This document shows, one piece after another, positions 4,898-54,179 of a stretch of DNA of 64,000 nt (the stretch's first letter is position 1; the number at the start of each line of letters is the position of its first letter). Position numbers and translations under genes: made by a program. Origin of the DNA: Chloroflexota bacterium (lineage in GTDB: Bacteria > Chloroflexota > Limnocylindria > Limnocylindrales > CSP1-4). The notes beneath the pieces are model-generated. The model was not told the DNA's origin and did not search any database. It saw only the letters and a program-made list of their open reading frames with translations. Where the stretch lies: the NCBI GenBank assembly GCA_015478725.1, contig JADMIG010000001.1, forward strand, positions 124,001 to 188,000, given 5' to 3'.

Positions 4898-4972
4898 GGG
4901 CCGGTAGCTCAACGGTAGAGCAAGTGACTCTTAATCACTTGGTTGAGAGTTCGAATCTCTCCCGGCTCACCA
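4898..4972 (+). tRNA. tRNA-Lys (anticodon CTT), CCA encoded
   Basis: A complete 75-nt cloverleaf. The acceptor GGGCCGG pairs with CCGGCTC (one G-U). The D-stem is GCTC/GAGC. The anticodon stem AGTGA/TCACT closes the loop CTCTTAA, placing CTT at 4930-4932. The variable loop has 5 nt, and the T-stem GAGAG/CTCTC closes TTCGAAT. Discriminator A is at 4969 and CCA at 4970-4972. It is probably the target of the adjacent integrase, though the element lies on its 5' side, whereas integration into the 3' half is more usual. Confidence 0.97.
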
Positions 4973-5039
4973 TCAGGCCGTGCGCACTCGCCACCCGGCG
5001 AGTTGACGCCGGTTACGCCTCTCGCCTAGGCTTCGCGAC

Positions 5040-5100
5040 GGCGATGGTTCCCGCCGAGACGCGCTGCGTCTGAACCGCCCCGGACGGGCTGATGGCTCCT
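5040..5100 (+). ncRNA. Fluoride riboswitch (crcB motif)
   Basis: The sequence follows the crcB motif. GGCGATGG with a closing CGCC forms the first stem at 5040-5055. An optional AGACGC/GCGTCT hairpin and the AACCGCC joint follow. The 3' element GGGCTGATGGCTCCT ends at 5100, after GCCC/GGGC pairing. The pseudoknot between the first loop and GGCTCC has two non-pairing central positions, so it is slightly off consensus. Directly downstream is an operon with CrcB, the known fluoride channel, which strongly supports the call. A small CTGCT/AGCAG hairpin at about 5104-5114 could be part of the expression platform. The ATG at 5092 lies inside the conserved CTGATGGCTCC and is therefore not the start of the next gene. 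Confidence 0.85.
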
Positions 5101-5154
5101 GGACTGCTGAGCAGCCAGGGGCCGTCGTCGTTCCTGGGGACCGGAGGTTCGGAC

Positions 5155-44335: not shown

Positions 44336-44974
44336 ATGGAACGCCTGATCCGTGCCGTCGGCCCGATCGCGACGAACGTCCACATCCTCGCCGACACCCG
44401 CACGGGCGAGGCCATCGCGATCGACACGGCGATCCCGTCGCTTGCATTCGTGACGGACGAGCTCGCCGCCCGCGGCTGGACGCTCCGGCTCATCGTCTCC
44501 ACCCACGGTCACTGGGACCACATCGGCGACAACGCCACCATCGCCACTCACACCGGTGCGCCGATCGCCGTCCACCCGCTCGATCGCGGGCGGCTCGAGC
44601 GACCGGACCGCGGCATGGCGCCGTTCGACATCCCGCCCTCCGTGCCTGCCGTGGAGCTCGCCGAGGGTGGCATCGTCCGCTTCGGCGGGATCCACCTGGA
44701 GGTGCTCCACACGCCGGGTCACACGGAGGGATCCGTCTGCCTCCTCGATCGCGAGACCGGGACGCTGTGGAGCGGCGACACGCTCTTCGCCGGTGGCTGG
44801 GGTCGGGTGGACCTGGTGGGCGGTTCAGCGGAGGCCATGGCATCGTCGCTCGCCCGCCTCGCGCAGCTCGACGATCGACTCAGGGTCCTGCCCGGACATG
44901 GTCCGGAGACGACGATCGGCCGGGAGCGGGCGTGGCTCGACCTCGTTGTCACCGAGGGTCGATTGTTCGCCTGA
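44336..44974 (+). CDS. Metallo-beta-lactamase-fold hydrolase (glyoxalase II-like)
   Basis: A 212-residue hydrolase with the dinuclear zinc motif THGHWDHIGD near 58-67, then HTPGHTEGSVCLLD near 124-137, and SGDTLFAGGWGRVDL near 144-158. Homologues split thioesters such as lactoylglutathione or act on other small esters. It lies 49 bp after coxG on the same strand and may be the last gene of the form I operon or an independent gene. The substrate cannot be told from the sequence. Confidence 0.88.
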   Translation: MERLIRAVGPIATNVHILADTRTGEAIAIDTAIPSLAFVTDELAARGWTLRLIVSTHGHWDHIGDNATIATHTGAPIAVHPLDRGRLERPDRGMAPFDIPPSVPAVELAEGGIVRFGGIHLEVLHTPGHTEGSVCLLDRETGTLWSGDTLFAGGWGRVDLVGGSAEAMASSLARLAQLDDRLRVLPGHGPETTIGRERAWLDLVVTEGRLFA

Positions 44975-45081
44975 CGCCCCCATCGGTGCGGGGTGGCGCG
45001 GAGCCGGCTGATCATGCAAGGATCGTGGCCCGCCGTGCGTATGAGGAGCATGAGGATCCCGACCAAGGCCGACGCGGCGTC

Positions 45082-45639
45082 ATGAACGACGACGATCCGC
45101 GGCGGGACGCGGTCGAACGGGCCTACCGGGCGCACGCCGATGACGTCTACCGCGTGGCGTATGCGATCCTCCGGGACCCCGACGCCGCGGCGGACACGAC
45201 CCACGACGCGTTCGCCCGGGCCTATGAGCGGTGGGACCAGTACGACGCGAACCGTCCGCTCCGGCCGTGGCTTCACGCGATCGTCGGCCATCTGGCGCTC
45301 GACGCCCTCCGCCGACGCCGCGTCCACGAGCGGACGATGCCGTTCCTCCGGCACGTCGCGGAGATCGCGGCGATCGCGCCGATCGATCTGGCCGCGGGCC
45401 CGGAGATGGCGATGGCCCGTCGCGACACCGTCGACGTGGGCCTCGGGATGCTCAGCCCGACGGCACGGGCCGCGATCGTCCTCCGCCACTACTACGGCTA
45501 CGACTACGTCGAGATCGGGACGTTCCTCGGCACGAGCGCCGGCAACGTCGGCTCGATCCTCAGCCGCGCCCACGCCGAGCTGCGACGGCGCCTTTCGGAC
45601 GATGCCCCCGACGACCGACTCGGCCGTTCGGCGGTCTGA
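45082..45639 (+). CDS. ECF-type RNA polymerase sigma factor
   Basis: A 185-residue ECF sigma factor with region 2 (AYRAHADDVYRVAYAILRDP, THDAFARAYERWDQYD, PWLHAIVGHLALDALRRRR) and region 4 (SPTARAAIVLRHYYGYDYVE, LGTSAGNVGSILSRAHAELR). ATG 45082 begins at the usual distance before region 2. It is followed 22 bp later by a membrane protein that is the likely anti-sigma partner. The inducing signal is unknown. Confidence 0.9.
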   Translation: MNDDDPRRDAVERAYRAHADDVYRVAYAILRDPDAAADTTHDAFARAYERWDQYDANRPLRPWLHAIVGHLALDALRRRRVHERTMPFLRHVAEIAAIAPIDLAAGPEMAMARRDTVDVGLGMLSPTARAAIVLRHYYGYDYVEIGTFLGTSAGNVGSILSRAHAELRRRLSDDAPDDRLGRSAV

Positions 45640-47444: not shown

Positions 47445-48473
47445 TCAGGCGCGCTCGAGCGACCTTCGCCAGGCGATCGCCCGCTGGACGGCGACGAATC
47501 CGAGGCCCTCGTACAGGCCGAGGGCGCCGCTCGGGTTATCGGCGTCGACGCCGAGTGCCGCCTCCGTGATGCCCCGGTCGCGGAGCCCGCGGCAGGCCGA
47601 CCCGATGAGCGCGGTGGCCAGGCCCTGGCGGCGCCACGCGCGACGGACGCTCACCCGCTCGAGCCATCCCCGGCGCACGCCGAGGGCGGCGTTCTCCGCG
47701 GCGAAGACATAGGTCGCGACCACACCCGCGACCTCGTCGCCCGCCCAGGCGACGCGCCACAGGGAGAGGTCGAGGTCCGCGGCGGTCCGGATCTGCTCGA
47801 AGACGGCGTCGCCCCAGTCCCGGTGGCCCCAGTGGTCCTGGAAGGCCTCGACTTCGGCGTCGAAGACCTGGCGGAGGTTGGCGGGCGTGACGAGCCTGAC
47901 CTCGATGCCCGCCGGGAGGGCGGTCGGCAGCGGCGCATCGAGATCGCGACGGAGCATCTCGAAGAAATAGCGGACGGGCGTGAAGCCCTCGGAGCGCATG
48001 AGCGCGCCGTGCCCGACGTTCGTCTCGGGAGCCCAAGCGCCGAGCCAGATCGGCTCGTCCGCGGGCAGCTCGTTGCCCGCCCGCTCCCGAGCACGTGCGA
48101 CGCCGGCGCGGTGGAGCATCCGCCCGAGCCCACGTCGGCGGAGCTCCGGGTGAACGTCGCCGTGGAGGTCGTAGATCGCCTGTTCGTCCCGCCGCGCGAA
48201 CCGCACCTGGACGGAGCCCACGATCCGGTCGTCCACCTCGGCGACGAGCACGTCGCTCGCTGGATCGAACCCATCCGGATGGTCGAACTCGCCTGCCCAC
48301 TGGTCGATCGTCGGGATCATGTCGAACGAGTCGGCGAGGTTCGCGGCGGCGCTCAGAGCGACGAGGCCGGGCAGATCCGCGGGCCCGCCATACGCCCGGA
48401 ACCGCAGGCCGGCGATCGCCCGTCCGTCGCCGACAAGACGTTCCATCCCGGTCGCTGTCGTCGTCTCGGTCAT
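47445..48473 (-). CDS. Tandem GNAT N-acetyltransferase
   Basis: A 342-residue protein with two GNAT domains. The first (about 25-170) has VAEVDDRIVGSVQVRF and VHPELRRRGLGRMLHR, an acetyl-CoA pyrophosphate loop. The second (about 190-335) has WAGDEVAGVVATYVF, VSVRRAWRRQGLATALIGSA and LGVDADNPSGALGLYEGLGF. The double-GNAT layout resembles mycothiol synthase and related small-molecule acetyltransferases. GGAGGGAACG precedes the ATG. It is the last gene of a minus-strand unit led by a small ORF and a hairpin, which could imply inducible expression. Confidence 0.85.
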   Translation of the reverse strand: MTETTTATGMERLVGDGRAIAGLRFRAYGGPADLPGLVALSAAANLADSFDMIPTIDQWAGEFDHPDGFDPASDVLVAEVDDRIVGSVQVRFARRDEQAIYDLHGDVHPELRRRGLGRMLHRAGVARARERAGNELPADEPIWLGAWAPETNVGHGALMRSEGFTPVRYFFEMLRRDLDAPLPTALPAGIEVRLVTPANLRQVFDAEVEAFQDHWGHRDWGDAVFEQIRTAADLDLSLWRVAWAGDEVAGVVATYVFAAENAALGVRRGWLERVSVRRAWRRQGLATALIGSACRGLRDRGITEAALGVDADNPSGALGLYEGLGFVAVQRAIAWRRSLERA

Positions 48474-48546
48474 CGTTCCCTCCGTTGGTCCTTCGTGGCT
48501 TGGCCATCATCTCGGCAGGCTCGCCTGGTCCCGCCGGCTCGGACCG

Positions 48547-48780
48547 TCATCGGGTCCGAGCCGGCTGCGCGATCGGATCGCCGCCCGGGTCCGCCGCGAG
48601 GCGGGTCCCGAACGCGATCATCCGGTTGCCGAGCGCCCGGCGGAACGGGCGTCGAGCGCCCGCGGCGGTCGTACGTTCGTCCTCCGGCCGGCGCATCACT
48701 CGAGCGTCGGCGGCTGCCAGGATCTGGGCGTCCCGGCGCTCGCGCGCCAGGCGGAGGCGGATATCGGGACTGGTCTGCAT
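48547..48780 (-). CDS. Small basic protein upstream of the GNAT gene
   Basis: A 77-residue protein from ATG 48780, with GGGAGG 10 nt upstream; ATG 48786 and GTG 48789 are alternatives. The N-terminal MQTSPDIRLRLARERRDAQI is an amphipathic helix. The C-terminal part (RRALGNRMIAFGTRLAAD) resembles short Arg-rich proteins common in high-GC bacteria, of unknown role. It precedes the acetyltransferase by 73 bp and is probably cotranscribed. Confidence 0.6.
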   Translation of the reverse strand: MQTSPDIRLRLARERRDAQILAAADARVMRRPEDERTTAAGARRPFRRALGNRMIAFGTRLAADPGGDPIAQPARTR

Positions 48781-48856
48781 GATCATCACCTCCCTTCGTC
48801 GGGATTCGCCGTGTCGTTGTCGGGGATGCCCGTCGTGAGCGCCGCGGGCATCGAAA

Positions 48857-48884
48857 AGCCGTGGACCCGGTCCGGGCCACGGCT
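48857..48884 (-). terminator. Hairpin with T-tract: intrinsic terminator or attenuator
   Basis: On the minus strand a long hairpin (AGCCGTGG and CCGG arms folding back with one bulge) is followed at once by TTTT. It lies 38 nt after the stop of a 27-residue leader ORF and ~77 nt before the small basic protein gene, the classical place for an attenuator. Confidence 0.6.
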
Positions 48885-48922
48885 CGTCGTTCGCGTTTCA
48901 GGGCGGCGGTCGCCGCCTGCGG

Positions 48923-49006
48923 CTAGCTCGAGAAGGGCACAGACCTCCCGTGATCGGCGGCCCGGATGGGCGCCGTCAGGTGAGGGACGAAGAGGCTGGT
49001 TCGCAT
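48923..49006 (-). CDS. 27-residue leader peptide of the GNAT unit
   Basis: ATG 49006 is preceded on the minus strand by AAAGGAGG, the strongest ribosome-binding site in the area. It encodes a 27-residue peptide starting MRTSLFVPHLTAPIRAADHG and ending VPFSS, TAG at 48923. The promoter is ~70 nt upstream and a terminator hairpin is 38 nt downstream. It may be a regulatory leader peptide whose translation controls the hairpin, as in antibiotic- or amino-acid-responsive attenuators. No homologous protein family is expected at this length. Confidence 0.5.
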   Translation of the reverse strand: MRTSLFVPHLTAPIRAADHGRSVPFSS

Positions 49007-49073
49007 CGTTCGGGGCCCTCCTTTCTCGACCGCTTCGTGGTCGGCTGGGCGCGCGATGTGGCGCCGGTGGCGG

Positions 49074-49103
49074 AGTCTACGCGGTGCGCCACTCGTGCGT
49101 CAA
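49074..49103 (-). promoter_or_regulatory. Sigma70-type promoter of the leader/GNAT unit
   Basis: On the minus strand TTGACG (49103-49098), an 18-nt spacer, and TAGACT (49079-49074). The predicted start near 49067 gives a ~60-nt leader before the 27-residue ORF. Confidence 0.6.
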
Positions 49104-49126
49104 TTCCCTGTACTCGGCGTGTCGAT

Positions 49127-49174
49127 GGGCTGAGATTCTGTCACCCCTGACCTGGGCTGAGACTTTGTCACCCC
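49127..49174. repeat. Two 21-bp direct repeats, intergenic
   Basis: GGGCTGAGATTCTGTCACCCC at 49127-49147 (written here as 21 positions, key parts CTGAGA and TGTCACCCC) recurs at 49154-49174 with two differences, period 27 bp. It is less GC-rich than its surroundings and sits between the two divergent promoters at 49.08 and 49.2 kb. It may be an operator pair or mobile-element relic. Confidence 0.6.
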
Positions 49175-49213: not shown

Positions 49214-50077
49214 GTGCCATCCGACGGCTCCCCGGCCCGTTCTCGCCTGGTCGCGACCGTGTCCGTCGTCGACCTCATCCGCCAGGGCGTCCTTGATCCG
49301 TCGCTTGCCGGGCTCCTCTCGATCCTCGTCGAGGCCAGGCTCCCGCTCATCGTCGCGGCCGGCCCGCAGGGAACGGGCAAGACGACGCTGCTCGCGACGC
49401 TCCTGGGCCTGCTGCCGGAGGAGGTTGCGATCCATCCGCTCGCGGGGTATGCGGAGGATTTCGCCTGGCTGCCGGAGGCGCCGACCCTCGGCTGGCGGCC
49501 GCACGGATTCCGCGGCGTCGGGGTCGAGGTCACGCCTCTGCGGGCCGGAGGGCCGTCCGCCCCGGCGACGGCGGCTCCACTCGTCGGCCCGACGACGACC
49601 TGCCTCCTCGTCCATGAGTTCAGCGACCACCTGCCGGAGCACACGTGGGGTGAGCAGGCGCGCATCGCTGTCCGGGCCCTGAGTCTCGGCTACGGTCTCG
49701 GTGGGACGATCCATGCCGATTCGCTCGAGGATGTCTTCGCGGCGCTCGGCGGTCCGGACGTGGGCCTTACCGACGACGAGTTGTCGCGCCTCGGCGTTGT
49801 GCTCATCCTGCGGATCGTCCGCCATCCGACGAGCGGGGCCTGGGTCCGGCGCGTGGTCGCCGCCCACTACGTCCGTCCGGTCTCGCGTGACGCCGGTGGC
49901 CACGTCCAGCGGCTCGGGCCGGCCGTCCTCGCGACCTGGGATCCGCTGGCGGACCGGTTCGAGGACTTCAGCTGGGGAGTCGCAGCGGAGCTCGCCGAGC
50001 GGGTCGGGATGAAGACCGGGGACTTCGAGGCGGAGCACGCGCGGCGGGCGGCGACGTTCGCGAGGGATTCCGACTGA
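49214..50077 (+). CDS. Orphan secretion-type (GspE/PilT/VirB11-like) P-loop ATPase
   Basis: A 287-residue ATPase with Walker A GPQGTGKTTLLATLLGLLP at about 50-68, an HEFSDHLPE segment near 138-146 in the Walker B region, and LSLGYGLGGTIHADSLEDVF near 160-179, which matches the His-box of type II/IV secretion ATPases. It lacks a long N-terminal domain and no pilus or secretion genes are nearby, so it may have another role such as a stand-alone NTPase. GTG 49214 is chosen for the -10 box placed 6 nt before it. Confidence 0.6.
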   Translation: MPSDGSPARSRLVATVSVVDLIRQGVLDPSLAGLLSILVEARLPLIVAAGPQGTGKTTLLATLLGLLPEEVAIHPLAGYAEDFAWLPEAPTLGWRPHGFRGVGVEVTPLRAGGPSAPATAAPLVGPTTTCLLVHEFSDHLPEHTWGEQARIAVRALSLGYGLGGTIHADSLEDVFAALGGPDVGLTDDELSRLGVVLILRIVRHPTSGAWVRRVVAAHYVRPVSRDAGGHVQRLGPAVLATWDPLADRFEDFSWGVAAELAERVGMKTGDFEAEHARRAATFARDSD

Positions 50078-50537: not shown

Positions 50538-52007
50538 ATGACCGAACCGACCGCCACCGCGTCGACGACTCCCGAACCGACCGCCGCCCCGCTCCTCCAG
50601 ACGCTCGGTCAGCTCCGCGCATCGGGCTGGCGCAGCCGCACGGTGAAGGAGGAGCTCCGCGCGAATCTCCTCGCTCGGCTCGGGGAAGGCGAGGCGGTCT
50701 TTCCCGGCATCATCGGCTTCGAGGAGACCGTACTGCCGGCCGTCGAGAACGCGATCCTCGCGGGGCAAGATCTCGTCTTCCTTGGCGAGCGCGGCCAGGC
50801 GAAGACCCGGATGGCGCGGCTCCTCATCGGGCTCCTCGATCCGTGGCTGCCGGTCGTCGACGGGGGCGAGCTCAACGACGACCCATCGGCGCCGGTCAGC
50901 GCGGCCGCCCGGGCGATCGTCGCCGCTCGCGGGGAGGACACGCCGGTGGCCTGGCTCCCGCGGGCCCGTCGCTACGGCGAGAAGCTCGCCACGCCGGACA
51001 TCACCATCGCCGACCTCATCGGGGAGGTCGATCCCGTCAAGGTCGCCGAGGGTCGCTATCTCGCCGACGAATCGACGCTCCACTACGGACTCATCCCGCG
51101 CACGAACCGCGGGATCTTCGCGATCAACGAGCTGCCCGACCTCGCCGAGCGGATCCAGGTGGGCCTCCTCAACATCCTTGAGGAGCGCGACGTGCAGGTT
51201 CGTGGCTACACGATCCGGCTGCCGCTCGACCTCTTCGTCGTGGCGTCGGCGAACCCGGAGGACTACACGTCGCGGGGTCGGATCATCACGCCGCTCAAGG
51301 ATCGTCTCGGGTCGCAGATCCGGACGCACTATCCACGGACCCTCGAGGATGAGATTGCGATCGTCCGCCAGGAGCGGCTTCGCTTCCCGGCCGACGAGGG
51401 TGTCCCGCCGATCGTCACGCCGGCGTTCATGGAGGCGCTCGTCGCCGAGATCACCCACCTCGCCCGGCGTTCGCCGGAGATCAGCCAGCGGAGCGGCGTC
51501 TCCGTGCGGGTGAGCGTCGCCAACGCGGAAGTGCTCGAGGCGGCCGCGCTCAAGCGGGCGATCCGGCTCGGCGAGCCCGCGGGCGCCCCCCGGGTCAGCG
51601 ATCTCGGCGCCGTGCTGGCCTCCACGGCCGGCAAGGTCGAGCTCGAGTCCGTCGGCGAGGACGTCTCGGAAGAGCGCATCGTCGAGCGCCTCATCACGAA
51701 GGCGCTCCATGCGACGTTCGGGAGGCTCGTGGAGGCGGACACACTCGACGAGGTCGTCGGGGCGTTCGACGCCGGGCTCGTCGTCGAGACCGGCGACCGG
51801 GTCCCGTCGCGCGAGTACGTTCGCTGGCTTCGCGAGGTGCCCGGCCTGCCGGACGTGGTTCGCGGCCTCGGCGTCGACGATCGAACGGACGATCCGACGA
51901 CCGCCCCGCTCGTCGCGTCGGCGGTCGAATTCATCCTCGAGGGACTGCACCTCCAGCGCAAGGTCAACAAGGATCGCGGCCCGGCCGGCCCCGTCTATCG
52001 CCGATGA
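50538..52007 (+). CDS. Magnesium-chelatase-like AAA+ ATPase
   Basis: A 489-residue AAA+ protein of the ChlI/MoxR supergroup: Walker A-like GERGQAKT at 83-90, Walker B GIFAINELPDLAERIQVGLL near 195-214, and sensor VVASANPEDYTSRGRIITPL. The usual GKT is replaced by AKT. It is encoded directly before a VWA protein, the layout of metal chelatases and of MoxR-type assembly machines. No bacteriochlorophyll or cobalamin gene is near, so the client protein or metal is unknown. Many genomes annotate this pair as Mg-chelatase by homology alone. Confidence 0.8.
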   Translation: MTEPTATASTTPEPTAAPLLQTLGQLRASGWRSRTVKEELRANLLARLGEGEAVFPGIIGFEETVLPAVENAILAGQDLVFLGERGQAKTRMARLLIGLLDPWLPVVDGGELNDDPSAPVSAAARAIVAARGEDTPVAWLPRARRYGEKLATPDITIADLIGEVDPVKVAEGRYLADESTLHYGLIPRTNRGIFAINELPDLAERIQVGLLNILEERDVQVRGYTIRLPLDLFVVASANPEDYTSRGRIITPLKDRLGSQIRTHYPRTLEDEIAIVRQERLRFPADEGVPPIVTPAFMEALVAEITHLARRSPEISQRSGVSVRVSVANAEVLEAAALKRAIRLGEPAGAPRVSDLGAVLASTAGKVELESVGEDVSEERIVERLITKALHATFGRLVEADTLDEVVGAFDAGLVVETGDRVPSREYVRWLREVPGLPDVVRGLGVDDRTDDPTTAPLVASAVEFILEGLHLQRKVNKDRGPAGPVYRR

Positions 52008-52043
52008 CCGGCGCCGTACGCCGATGACCGTCCTCCTGCCCCG

Positions 52044-54179
52044 ATGACCGGCTTCGGGTTCACTCCCGACCGGCGCGACCTCCGCGACGGCGGTTCGGGG
52101 CTCGAGGCGCGCCGCCCGGCCCCCCGCGGGGCCGCCCGCTACTCGCAGTGGGACGGTAGCCAGTCCGTCCCCGACCTCGACGCTGACGAACTCCTCGACG
52201 AACTCGCGGACGACATGATGGCCGAGGGCGACATCGCCGCGGCGCTGCGCCGGCTGATGGAACGCGGCTGGCGTTCGACGGATCCGACGCGGGCCGATCT
52301 GGCGGGCCTCCGCGACCTCCTCGACCGACTCGGGCGCCGCCGAGAGGAGCTCCTCGACCGGTACCGGCTCGGCGACGTGCTCGATGAGGTGCGCCGTGAA
52401 CTCGACGCGGTCATCGCCGAGGAACGAGCGGGCGTCCAGCGACGGCTCGACACGGCGGCCGGTGCCGGCGGCGCCGCTCCAGACGGCACCGCGCCCGCTC
52501 CGGACCCGCCGGACCCTGCCCTCCGGGAGATGCTCCGGGACATCGCGGCGAAGCGGCTGGACCGGCTCGATGCCCTCCCGCCTGAGGTCGGCGGCCGGAT
52601 CCGCGAACTCGAGTCGTACGACTTCCTCGAATCGGGCGCGCGCGAGCGCTTCGACGCCCTCGTCGCGCGTCTCCGTCGCCAGGTACTCGACCAGTACATC
52701 GACGGCCTCTCCGATGCGATCGCCTCGACCACGCCCGAGGATCTCACCGCGAATCGGGAGATGGTCCGCGACCTCAACCGGCTCCTCCAGGAGCGGCTCT
52801 CGGGACGCGATCCGGACGCATCCGAATTCCTCGCCCGCCATGGCGCCTTCTTCCCGGGTGCCCGGACGCTCGACGACGTCGTCGCGCAGCTGACCGAGCG
52901 GATGGCGGCGATGCAGTCGCTCCTGCGGTCCATGAGCGCGGAGCAGCGCGCGGAGCTCCAGGACGCGATGGACGCCCTGCTCCGCGACGACCGGCTGCGC
53001 TGGGATCTCGCCCAGCTCGCCGCCACGATGGACCAGCTCCTGCCGGGTGGCCTCGGCGAGCGGTTCCGCTTCGGCGGCGACGAGCCGCTCGGCCTGGAGG
53101 GCGCCCTGGCCCGCCTCGGCGATCTGCATGCCCTCGACGCGCTCGAGGAGCAGCTCGACGGCGTCAGCGGTCCGGGGGATCTCGGGCGAGTCGATCGAGA
53201 CCGGGTGCGCGACCTCCTCGGTGCCGACGCCGTGCGGGATCTCGACGCGCTCGACGACCTCGCCGCCCGCCTCGAGCGGGCCGGCTATCTCACCCGCGAC
53301 GGGGAACGCCTCGAGCTCACGCCGCGGGGCAGTCGGCGGATCGGCCAGAAGGTCCTCGACGACCTGTTCTCGCGGCTGCGGCGGGATGTCTTCGGCGATC
53401 ATCGGGCGGAGCGGTCCGGACGCGGCGGGGAGCGGGACGAGGCGACGAAGGCGTACGAGTTCGGCGACCCGTTCCATCTCGACCTTCGGCGGACGCTCGC
53501 GAACGCGCTCACCCGCGAGTCGAACGCGCCCGGCCGGCGAGCGGGACCGGGCCTCGACCTCGCGCCGGCCGACTTCGAGGTCTTCCGGACCGAGCAGACG
53601 AGCCGGACGTCCACGGTACTCCTCGTCGACATGAGCCGCTCCATGCTCCTGCGCGGCTGCTTCGTCGCGGCGAAGAAGGTCGCCGTCGCCCTCGACACGC
53701 TCATCCGGACCCAGTACCCCCGTGACGACCTCACCATCGTCGGGTTCGCCTACTACGCCCGGGAGATCCGGCCGCAGGCGCTCGCCGGGCTGAACTGGCA
53801 CGGCTACGAGTACGGCACGAACCTCCAGCACGGTCTCATGCTCGCGCGCCGGATCCTCGCCCGGAGCCATGGCTCGAACCGGGAGATCGTCGTCATCACG
53901 GACGGCGAGCCGACGGCGCACATGGAGGGCGGCCAGGTCGAGTTCAACTACCCGCCGACGCGCCGCACCATCGCCGCGACCCTCCGTGAGGTCGAACGCT
54001 GCACGAAGGACGGCATCACGATCAATACCTTCATGCTCGAACGGTCACGGGCTCTCGCGGAGTTCGTCGCCCTCGTCACGCGGCTCAATCGCGGCCGCGC
54101 GTTCTACGCCGAGCCCGAGCATCTCGGCGAATACGTCCTCGTCGATTTCGTGTCGCGCCGGACGAAACGGGTGTCGTAG
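52044..54179 (+). CDS. VWA domain partner of the AAA+ ATPase
   Basis: A 711-residue protein. The first ~480 residues are highly charged and helical, with probable coiled coil (LDRLGRRREELLDRYRLGD, LREMLRDIAAKRLDRLDAL). The C-terminal VWA domain has a MIDAS at DMSRSM (from Asp529) and VVITDGEPTAHMEGG. With the upstream ATPase it should form a ChlI/ChlD-like ATP-driven insertion or remodelling complex. Three ATGACC stretches lie around the junction (52004, 52024 and 52044); only 52044 opens the long frame. Confidence 0.82.
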   Translation: MTGFGFTPDRRDLRDGGSGLEARRPAPRGAARYSQWDGSQSVPDLDADELLDELADDMMAEGDIAAALRRLMERGWRSTDPTRADLAGLRDLLDRLGRRREELLDRYRLGDVLDEVRRELDAVIAEERAGVQRRLDTAAGAGGAAPDGTAPAPDPPDPALREMLRDIAAKRLDRLDALPPEVGGRIRELESYDFLESGARERFDALVARLRRQVLDQYIDGLSDAIASTTPEDLTANREMVRDLNRLLQERLSGRDPDASEFLARHGAFFPGARTLDDVVAQLTERMAAMQSLLRSMSAEQRAELQDAMDALLRDDRLRWDLAQLAATMDQLLPGGLGERFRFGGDEPLGLEGALARLGDLHALDALEEQLDGVSGPGDLGRVDRDRVRDLLGADAVRDLDALDDLAARLERAGYLTRDGERLELTPRGSRRIGQKVLDDLFSRLRRDVFGDHRAERSGRGGERDEATKAYEFGDPFHLDLRRTLANALTRESNAPGRRAGPGLDLAPADFEVFRTEQTSRTSTVLLVDMSRSMLLRGCFVAAKKVAVALDTLIRTQYPRDDLTIVGFAYYAREIRPQALAGLNWHGYEYGTNLQHGLMLARRILARSHGSNREIVVITDGEPTAHMEGGQVEFNYPPTRRTIAATLREVERCTKDGITINTFMLERSRALAEFVALVTRLNRGRAFYAEPEHLGEYVLVDFVSRRTKRVS

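Follow-up and report, generated by a model that had tools for sequence, protein, structure and literature searches.

The leader and its genes in the window

The window, that is, the whole stretch of 64,000 nucleotides that was analysed, carries on its minus strand a promoter, a short open reading frame (ORF) and a terminator hairpin, followed by a small protein gene and an acetyltransferase gene. A sequence-only reading had proposed here a leader-peptide attenuator made up of a promoter TTGACG-18-TAGACT, an ORF of 27 residues and a long hairpin followed by TTTT, placed before a small basic protein with a strong Shine-Dalgarno site and a double GNAT enzyme. All of these elements are present at the following positions, listed with the evidence on which each assignment is based:

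49103-49074 (-): promoter TTGACG-18-TAGACT (sequence scan)
49024-49017 (-): Shine-Dalgarno site AAAGGAGG of the leader ORF (sequence)
49006-48923 (-): leader peptide ORF MRTSLFVPHLTAPIRAADHGRSVPFSS, 27 codons, C-terminal motif GRSVPFSS (ORF list and relatives)
48956..48974 (-): hairpin 1, midway along the ORF (covariation)
48935..48945 (-): antiterminator 5' strand GGUCUGuGCCC, within the last ORF codons (pairing and covariation)
48902..48917 (-): hairpin 2, directly past the stop codon (covariation)
48869..48880 (-): antiterminator 3' strand, equal to the terminator 5' arm and loop (GGGCCAGAUC; GUGGCCCGGACC) (pairing and covariation)
48854..48884 (-): intrinsic terminator hairpin and TTTT (folding, -22.9 kcal/mol, and covariation)
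48547..48789 (-): small basic protein SM, start ATG likely at 48786 or 48780 (ORF and homologues; AGGGAGG Shine-Dalgarno site)
48470..48550 (-): 27-codon ORF MTVRAGGT..., remnant of an ABC-2 permease start (location at the SM/permease junction and resemblance to the permease start of the sister genome G001, MTGSSRPLPHAGGTS...)
47445..48473 (-): tandem GNAT acetyltransferase of 342 aa (two Pfam GNAT stretches, PDB match)

Promoter-like sites are enriched in the region (two, compared to 0.0 with a standard deviation of 0.2 expected from shuffles), and a TTGAC..TA...T promoter at an about constant distance from the start codon is found in most of the 81 leaders of relatives. The terminator arms, AGCCGTGG...CCACGGCT at 48884-48857 (-), lie upstream of the first structural gene and are followed by four T, compared to five to six in relatives; a simple terminator scan of the region did not call this terminator because of its short T-tract. 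Immediately 5' of the promoter, at 49127-49172 (-), the sequence GGTGACA[AG]A[AG]TCTCAGCCC occurs twice in direct orientation, 27 bases apart. The repeat has no further copies in the genome of the window and is possibly an operator or the remnant of an element.

Elsewhere in the window, a large ORF without Pfam match follows the gene of an ECF-type sigma factor (Sigma70_r2 and r4; 44767-45639, plus strand) and converges on the GNAT gene, and a T2SSE-like ATPase gene (49214-50077) adjoins a pair of genes for an AAA ATPase and a VWA-domain protein (50538-54179, plus strand), which is MoxR-like by arrangement. A fluoride riboswitch (RF01734, 36.5 bits, 5031-5108, plus strand) directly follows a tRNA gene (4898-4969); in the Rfam scan of the whole window these two were the only matches, neither of them at the leader.

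Spread of the leader and its ancestral operon

A DNA search with positions 48480-49110 as query matched 23 of 61 close relatives, a count that includes some short unrelated matches, and many of the matches are confined almost entirely to the terminator and the 3' half of the ORF. A covariance model (R1) built from an alignment of 13 sequences matches 105 of the 177 genomes of the class at E<=0.01. About 95 of these matches are strong, with one strong copy per genome, and the weaker entries include marginal ones or reverse-strand echoes. The window leader scores 103.5 bits (E 1.4e-21), far beyond chance, albeit as one of the sequences from which R1 was built. Eighty fetched loci and the window were aligned to R1, resulting in an alignment of 81 sequences (A3). 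Diverged leaders are present in other classes of the Chloroflexota, 5' of the same ATPase gene as in the class; some of them (L200, L210, L216 and L147) have two similar terminator-like hairpins in tandem, perhaps a double attenuator. The genomes compared are mostly metagenome-assembled. Rfam scans of nine relatives at E-values up to 0.1 gave no match to the leader, a plasmid search gave no match either, and the element is not described in the literature searched, which covered few subscription journals. The mechanism is already known; the family, its spread and the overlap of GRSVP with the antiterminator appear to be new.

In nearly every relative with enough sequence the leader lies 5' of a DrrA-like ABC ATPase gene (nearest NCBIfam family drrA, with a score below its cut-off). 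Besides the ATPase, the leader is usually followed by SM, whose homologues sit after the ATPase and belong to no Pfam or NCBIfam family, and by an ABC-2 permease (ABC2_membrane), often also by RsgA and the tandem GNAT, whose orthologues in these leader operons are 30-48% identical. Most of the 73 loci that exceed 4.5 kb in length have the order ATPase-permease-RsgA; GNAT may be lacking or stand on either side of RsgA. Ancestrally, the leader has as its target an operon for an ABC exporter (ATPase, SM and permease, often with RsgA and GNAT). In the window, SM directly follows the terminator without an ATPase gene in between, and a search of its genome found no orthologues of ATPase and permease, both of which are missing from a 582-kb contig. 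This pattern indicates that the ATPase and permease were lost from this genome, and that the leader, SM and GNAT remain. To the earlier proposal of a GNAT unit under the leader it must be added that, of the exporter operon, the small protein and GNAT alone are left in the window. Two further genomes suggest that the transporter was lost repeatedly under the same attenuator: one kept the leader with a truncated ATPase joined to RsgA (G096, L102 500-1990), the other with a truncated ATPase joined to GNAT (G009, L125 reverse strand 550-1290).

The best PDB match of the GNAT protein is 7q3a, which is probably MAB_4324c of M. abscessus. MAB_4324c belongs to the WhiB7 regulon and mildly acetylates amikacin (PMC10727445). 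The GNAT of the leader operons plausibly modifies a ribosome-targeting antibiotic and would then have a resistance function. R1 found no leader at seven public-genome loci with GNAT homologues, so that these GNATs occur without it.

The antiterminator and the leader peptide

In the leaders of the class, the last ORF codons (GAUCUG-u-GCCCAU) are complementary to the 5' arm and loop of the terminator (GUGGGC-CAGAUC). The antiterminator strand accordingly precedes the stop codon, and since the helix uses the 5' arm and loop of the terminator, the two structures exclude each other. The fit of A3 took in the terminator and two hairpins, but not the antiterminator helix. In this alignment 91.5% of the cells of the antiterminator helix are paired, and cells in which both sides are changed number 24 compared to 7.6 in shuffles (0 of 500 shuffles as high); when the partner is shifted by one to three columns, the pairing drops to 10-60%. 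Leaders carrying the terminator arm GAGGGC have the matching GCCCUU in the ORF. The variable half of the helix reads GCAUUG/CAAUGC in G190 and G178, where the bulged U is likewise present (GCAUUG-u-GCCCAU/GUGGGC-CAAUGC in G190), and GUCGUAU/AUACGAC in G186. In 24 leaders, 20 of which are from outside A3, native strand pairs have a mean energy of -19.0 kcal/mol compared to -15.5 kcal/mol for pairs swapped between distant classes (1 in 20000 permutations, p ~5e-5). The antiterminator of the window is among the weaker ones (-16 kcal/mol, with 8 of 23 swaps pairing better), and the native pairs of L146, L212 and L220 are no better than most swaps. Taken together, these data indicate that the antiterminator helix is maintained through compensatory changes.

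The other helices in A3 covary as well. All eight pairs of helices 1 and 2 have changes in both strands, with 55% and 83% of the cells paired; helix 3 (hairpin 2) is paired in 96.4% of its cells with three pairs changed on both sides, and helix 4 (the terminator) in 94.1%; these numbers are weaker evidence than the antiterminator tests because the model-fitted alignment leans toward hairpins 1 and 2 and the terminator. In addition, AGGAGGGC of the Shine-Dalgarno site can pair with GCCCUUCU of the antiterminator strand (8 bp in the window). Across relatives this pairing is weakly supported (19 of 5000 swaps as good), and the helix is a possible protector that would refine the switch.

All 81 leaders retain the ORF, its start and the position of its stop if four frame-shifted ones are counted. 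Lack of a competing fold and of a conserved short ORF would have spoken against the attenuator proposed from the window sequence; a competing, covarying antiterminator and a conserved ORF are both present, which supports the proposal. In its main frame (77 leaders) the ORF has its C-terminus at or close to GRS[VA]P, with the stop codon a few codons further on. The four shifted ORFs end in G[DE]xCPS or similar, with stops 19 bases (three) or 25 bases (one) after GGGAGA; as the frame shift changed the end of the peptide and left the RNA intact, the RNA was kept independently of the peptide end. Codons 2-9 of the class leaders are free of amino-acid constraint (pN/pS 1.3 and 0.9), as expected if the position of the ribosome outweighs the peptide, and the antiterminator/motif codons have a pN/pS of ~1.4-1.6 at low divergence. 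Within the class, selection thus acts mainly on the nucleotides and on the ORF being translated. At odds with this, GRSVP recurs in leaders of other classes (G465, G258 and G479), where different codons are used for Gly, Arg and Ser (GGG/GGT/GGC, AGG/AGA/CGC/CGT/CGG and TCT/AGT across classes), and family f3 has RRSLP with Ser AGC, which suggests a role at the peptide level.

Such a role could be that of an arrest or pause peptide: G-R-S-[VLA]-P, of the R-x-x-P kind and resembling RAGP/RAPP, would actively park the ribosome over the antiterminator strand and keep the operon off, or would serve in the response to a specific small molecule. We consider this a tentative reading with the odds against it. 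The motif is kept across classes by differing codons, and known arrest motifs of the RAPP type read R-A-[GP]-[PG] near the C-terminus (PMC10987492), so that R-S-[VAL]-P has Arg and Pro in place with different middle residues. However, RSVP is not named in that survey of arrest peptides, one lineage lost the motif by the frameshift (ending GD/EVCPS) and kept the RNA, and this lineage together with the pN/pS of the motif codons implies that RNA pairing explains much of the motif conservation. It would be a bolder form of the same idea, and is likewise doubtful, that one 15-base stretch serves a double duty throughout the Chloroflexota, encoding a new R-x-x-P pause or arrest motif (GRSVP) and being itself the antiterminator strand, which would be hidden by the ribosome parked at this motif, wired to an exporter/RsgA/GNAT operon for translation stress.

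The window leader might instead be a decaying remnant that has regulated nothing since the transporter was lost. The missing ATPase and permease orthologues, the remnant of the permease start and the shortened T-tract point this way, but the promoter, Shine-Dalgarno site, ORF, hairpins and both downstream genes are intact and the two other genomes with a decayed transporter likewise kept the leader, which makes complete decay unlikely. A ligand-binding, riboswitch-like RNA with an incidental ORF would explain why a structured RNA that includes a terminator/antiterminator switch is conserved, but is very improbable and was rejected: the ORF start and stop are universal in the 81 leaders, the frame-shifted group regained a nearby stop, Rfam gave no match at the leader in the window or in nine relatives, and a compact aptamer core with conserved sequence is lacking, hairpin 1 being free to vary in sequence and hairpin 2 being absent from other classes. 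A classical amino-acid attenuator sensing charged tRNA, which would share the RNA logic of trp and his and the presence of an antiterminator, is hardly credible and was rejected because the 81 leaders have neither a single-residue codon run nor a conserved residue in the first 10 codons (pN/pS about 1), and the downstream genes (exporter, RsgA, GNAT) are not biosynthetic.

Proposed mechanism and comparison with known systems

The leader is very probably a ribosome-controlled transcription attenuator composed of a leader peptide and a terminator. A ribosome at the end of the ORF would cover the antiterminator strand, the terminator would fold and transcription would stop. As the terminator stem begins ~40 nt past the stop codon and is not covered by this ribosome, completed translation should lead to termination. 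If inhibition of translation held the ribosome in the first third of the ORF, the antiterminator strand would be free to pair with the emerging 5' arm of the terminator, and RNA polymerase would read on. Read-through would switch on the ABC-2 exporter, the small basic protein and often RsgA and the tandem GNAT in most relatives, and only the small protein and GNAT in the genome of the window. Folding with a ribosome mask predicts the antiterminator with about codons 1-10 masked (A-site codon 6), though not at codon 9, and agrees with termination for a ribosome at the stop codon; minimum free energy (MFE) folding of the naked truncated leader, a rough guide for such GC-rich RNA, did not form the antiterminator. 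With its tail of four T and its less perfect antiterminator, the window copy may be leaky or decaying after the loss of the transporter.

The downstream genes fit a drug-response unit, and the presence of close copies of the leader 5' of the same operon in ~100 related bacteria suggests that it genuinely senses a block of protein synthesis. The inducer would most likely be a ribosome-targeting antibiotic or another translation stress, judging from the downstream genes and from bmrB-bmrCD of B. subtilis, in which the antitermination structure is favoured when an antibiotic blocks translation (PMC4191407).

The proposed attenuator spans several classes of a poorly studied phylum, and its compensatory evolution strongly supports the switch from sequence alone. 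The known drug-responsive leader-peptide attenuators come mainly from Firmicutes and a few Actinobacteria, and the general view is that such attenuators are narrow in distribution and evolve fast. The leader points to a single-copy exporter/RsgA/GNAT operon that is likely to be a core response when translation is inhibited, and the leaders could be used as ready-made reporters to find the inducer.

In the trp and his attenuators, a ribosome held early frees the strand that forms the antiterminator, and a ribosome at the end of the ORF leads to the terminator. The same logic of ribosome position is proposed here, in contrast without a regulatory codon run and with genes for export and defence downstream. 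With bmrB-bmrCD the leader shares a translated short ORF, a terminator/antiterminator switch and a downstream ABC exporter (PMC4191407), although bmrCD is an unrelated type of transporter in an unrelated organism. Furthermore, bmrB has 53 aa and the terminator inside the ORF, while here the terminator lies ~40 nt past the stop codon and the end of the ORF is the antiterminator strand; a conserved motif of the GRSVP type was not found reported for bmrB (PMC4191407). The arrest peptides with RAPP/RAGP motifs (ApdA, ApdP, ApcA and SecM; PMC10987492) are likewise encoded by short upstream ORFs and have Arg...Pro near the C-terminus. Here, the middle residues are S-V/A/L, no sec or yidC gene lies downstream, and arrest is putative. 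Lastly, MAB_4324c is also a tandem GNAT and responds to ribosome-targeting drugs (PMC10727445), but it is controlled by the transcription factor WhiB7.
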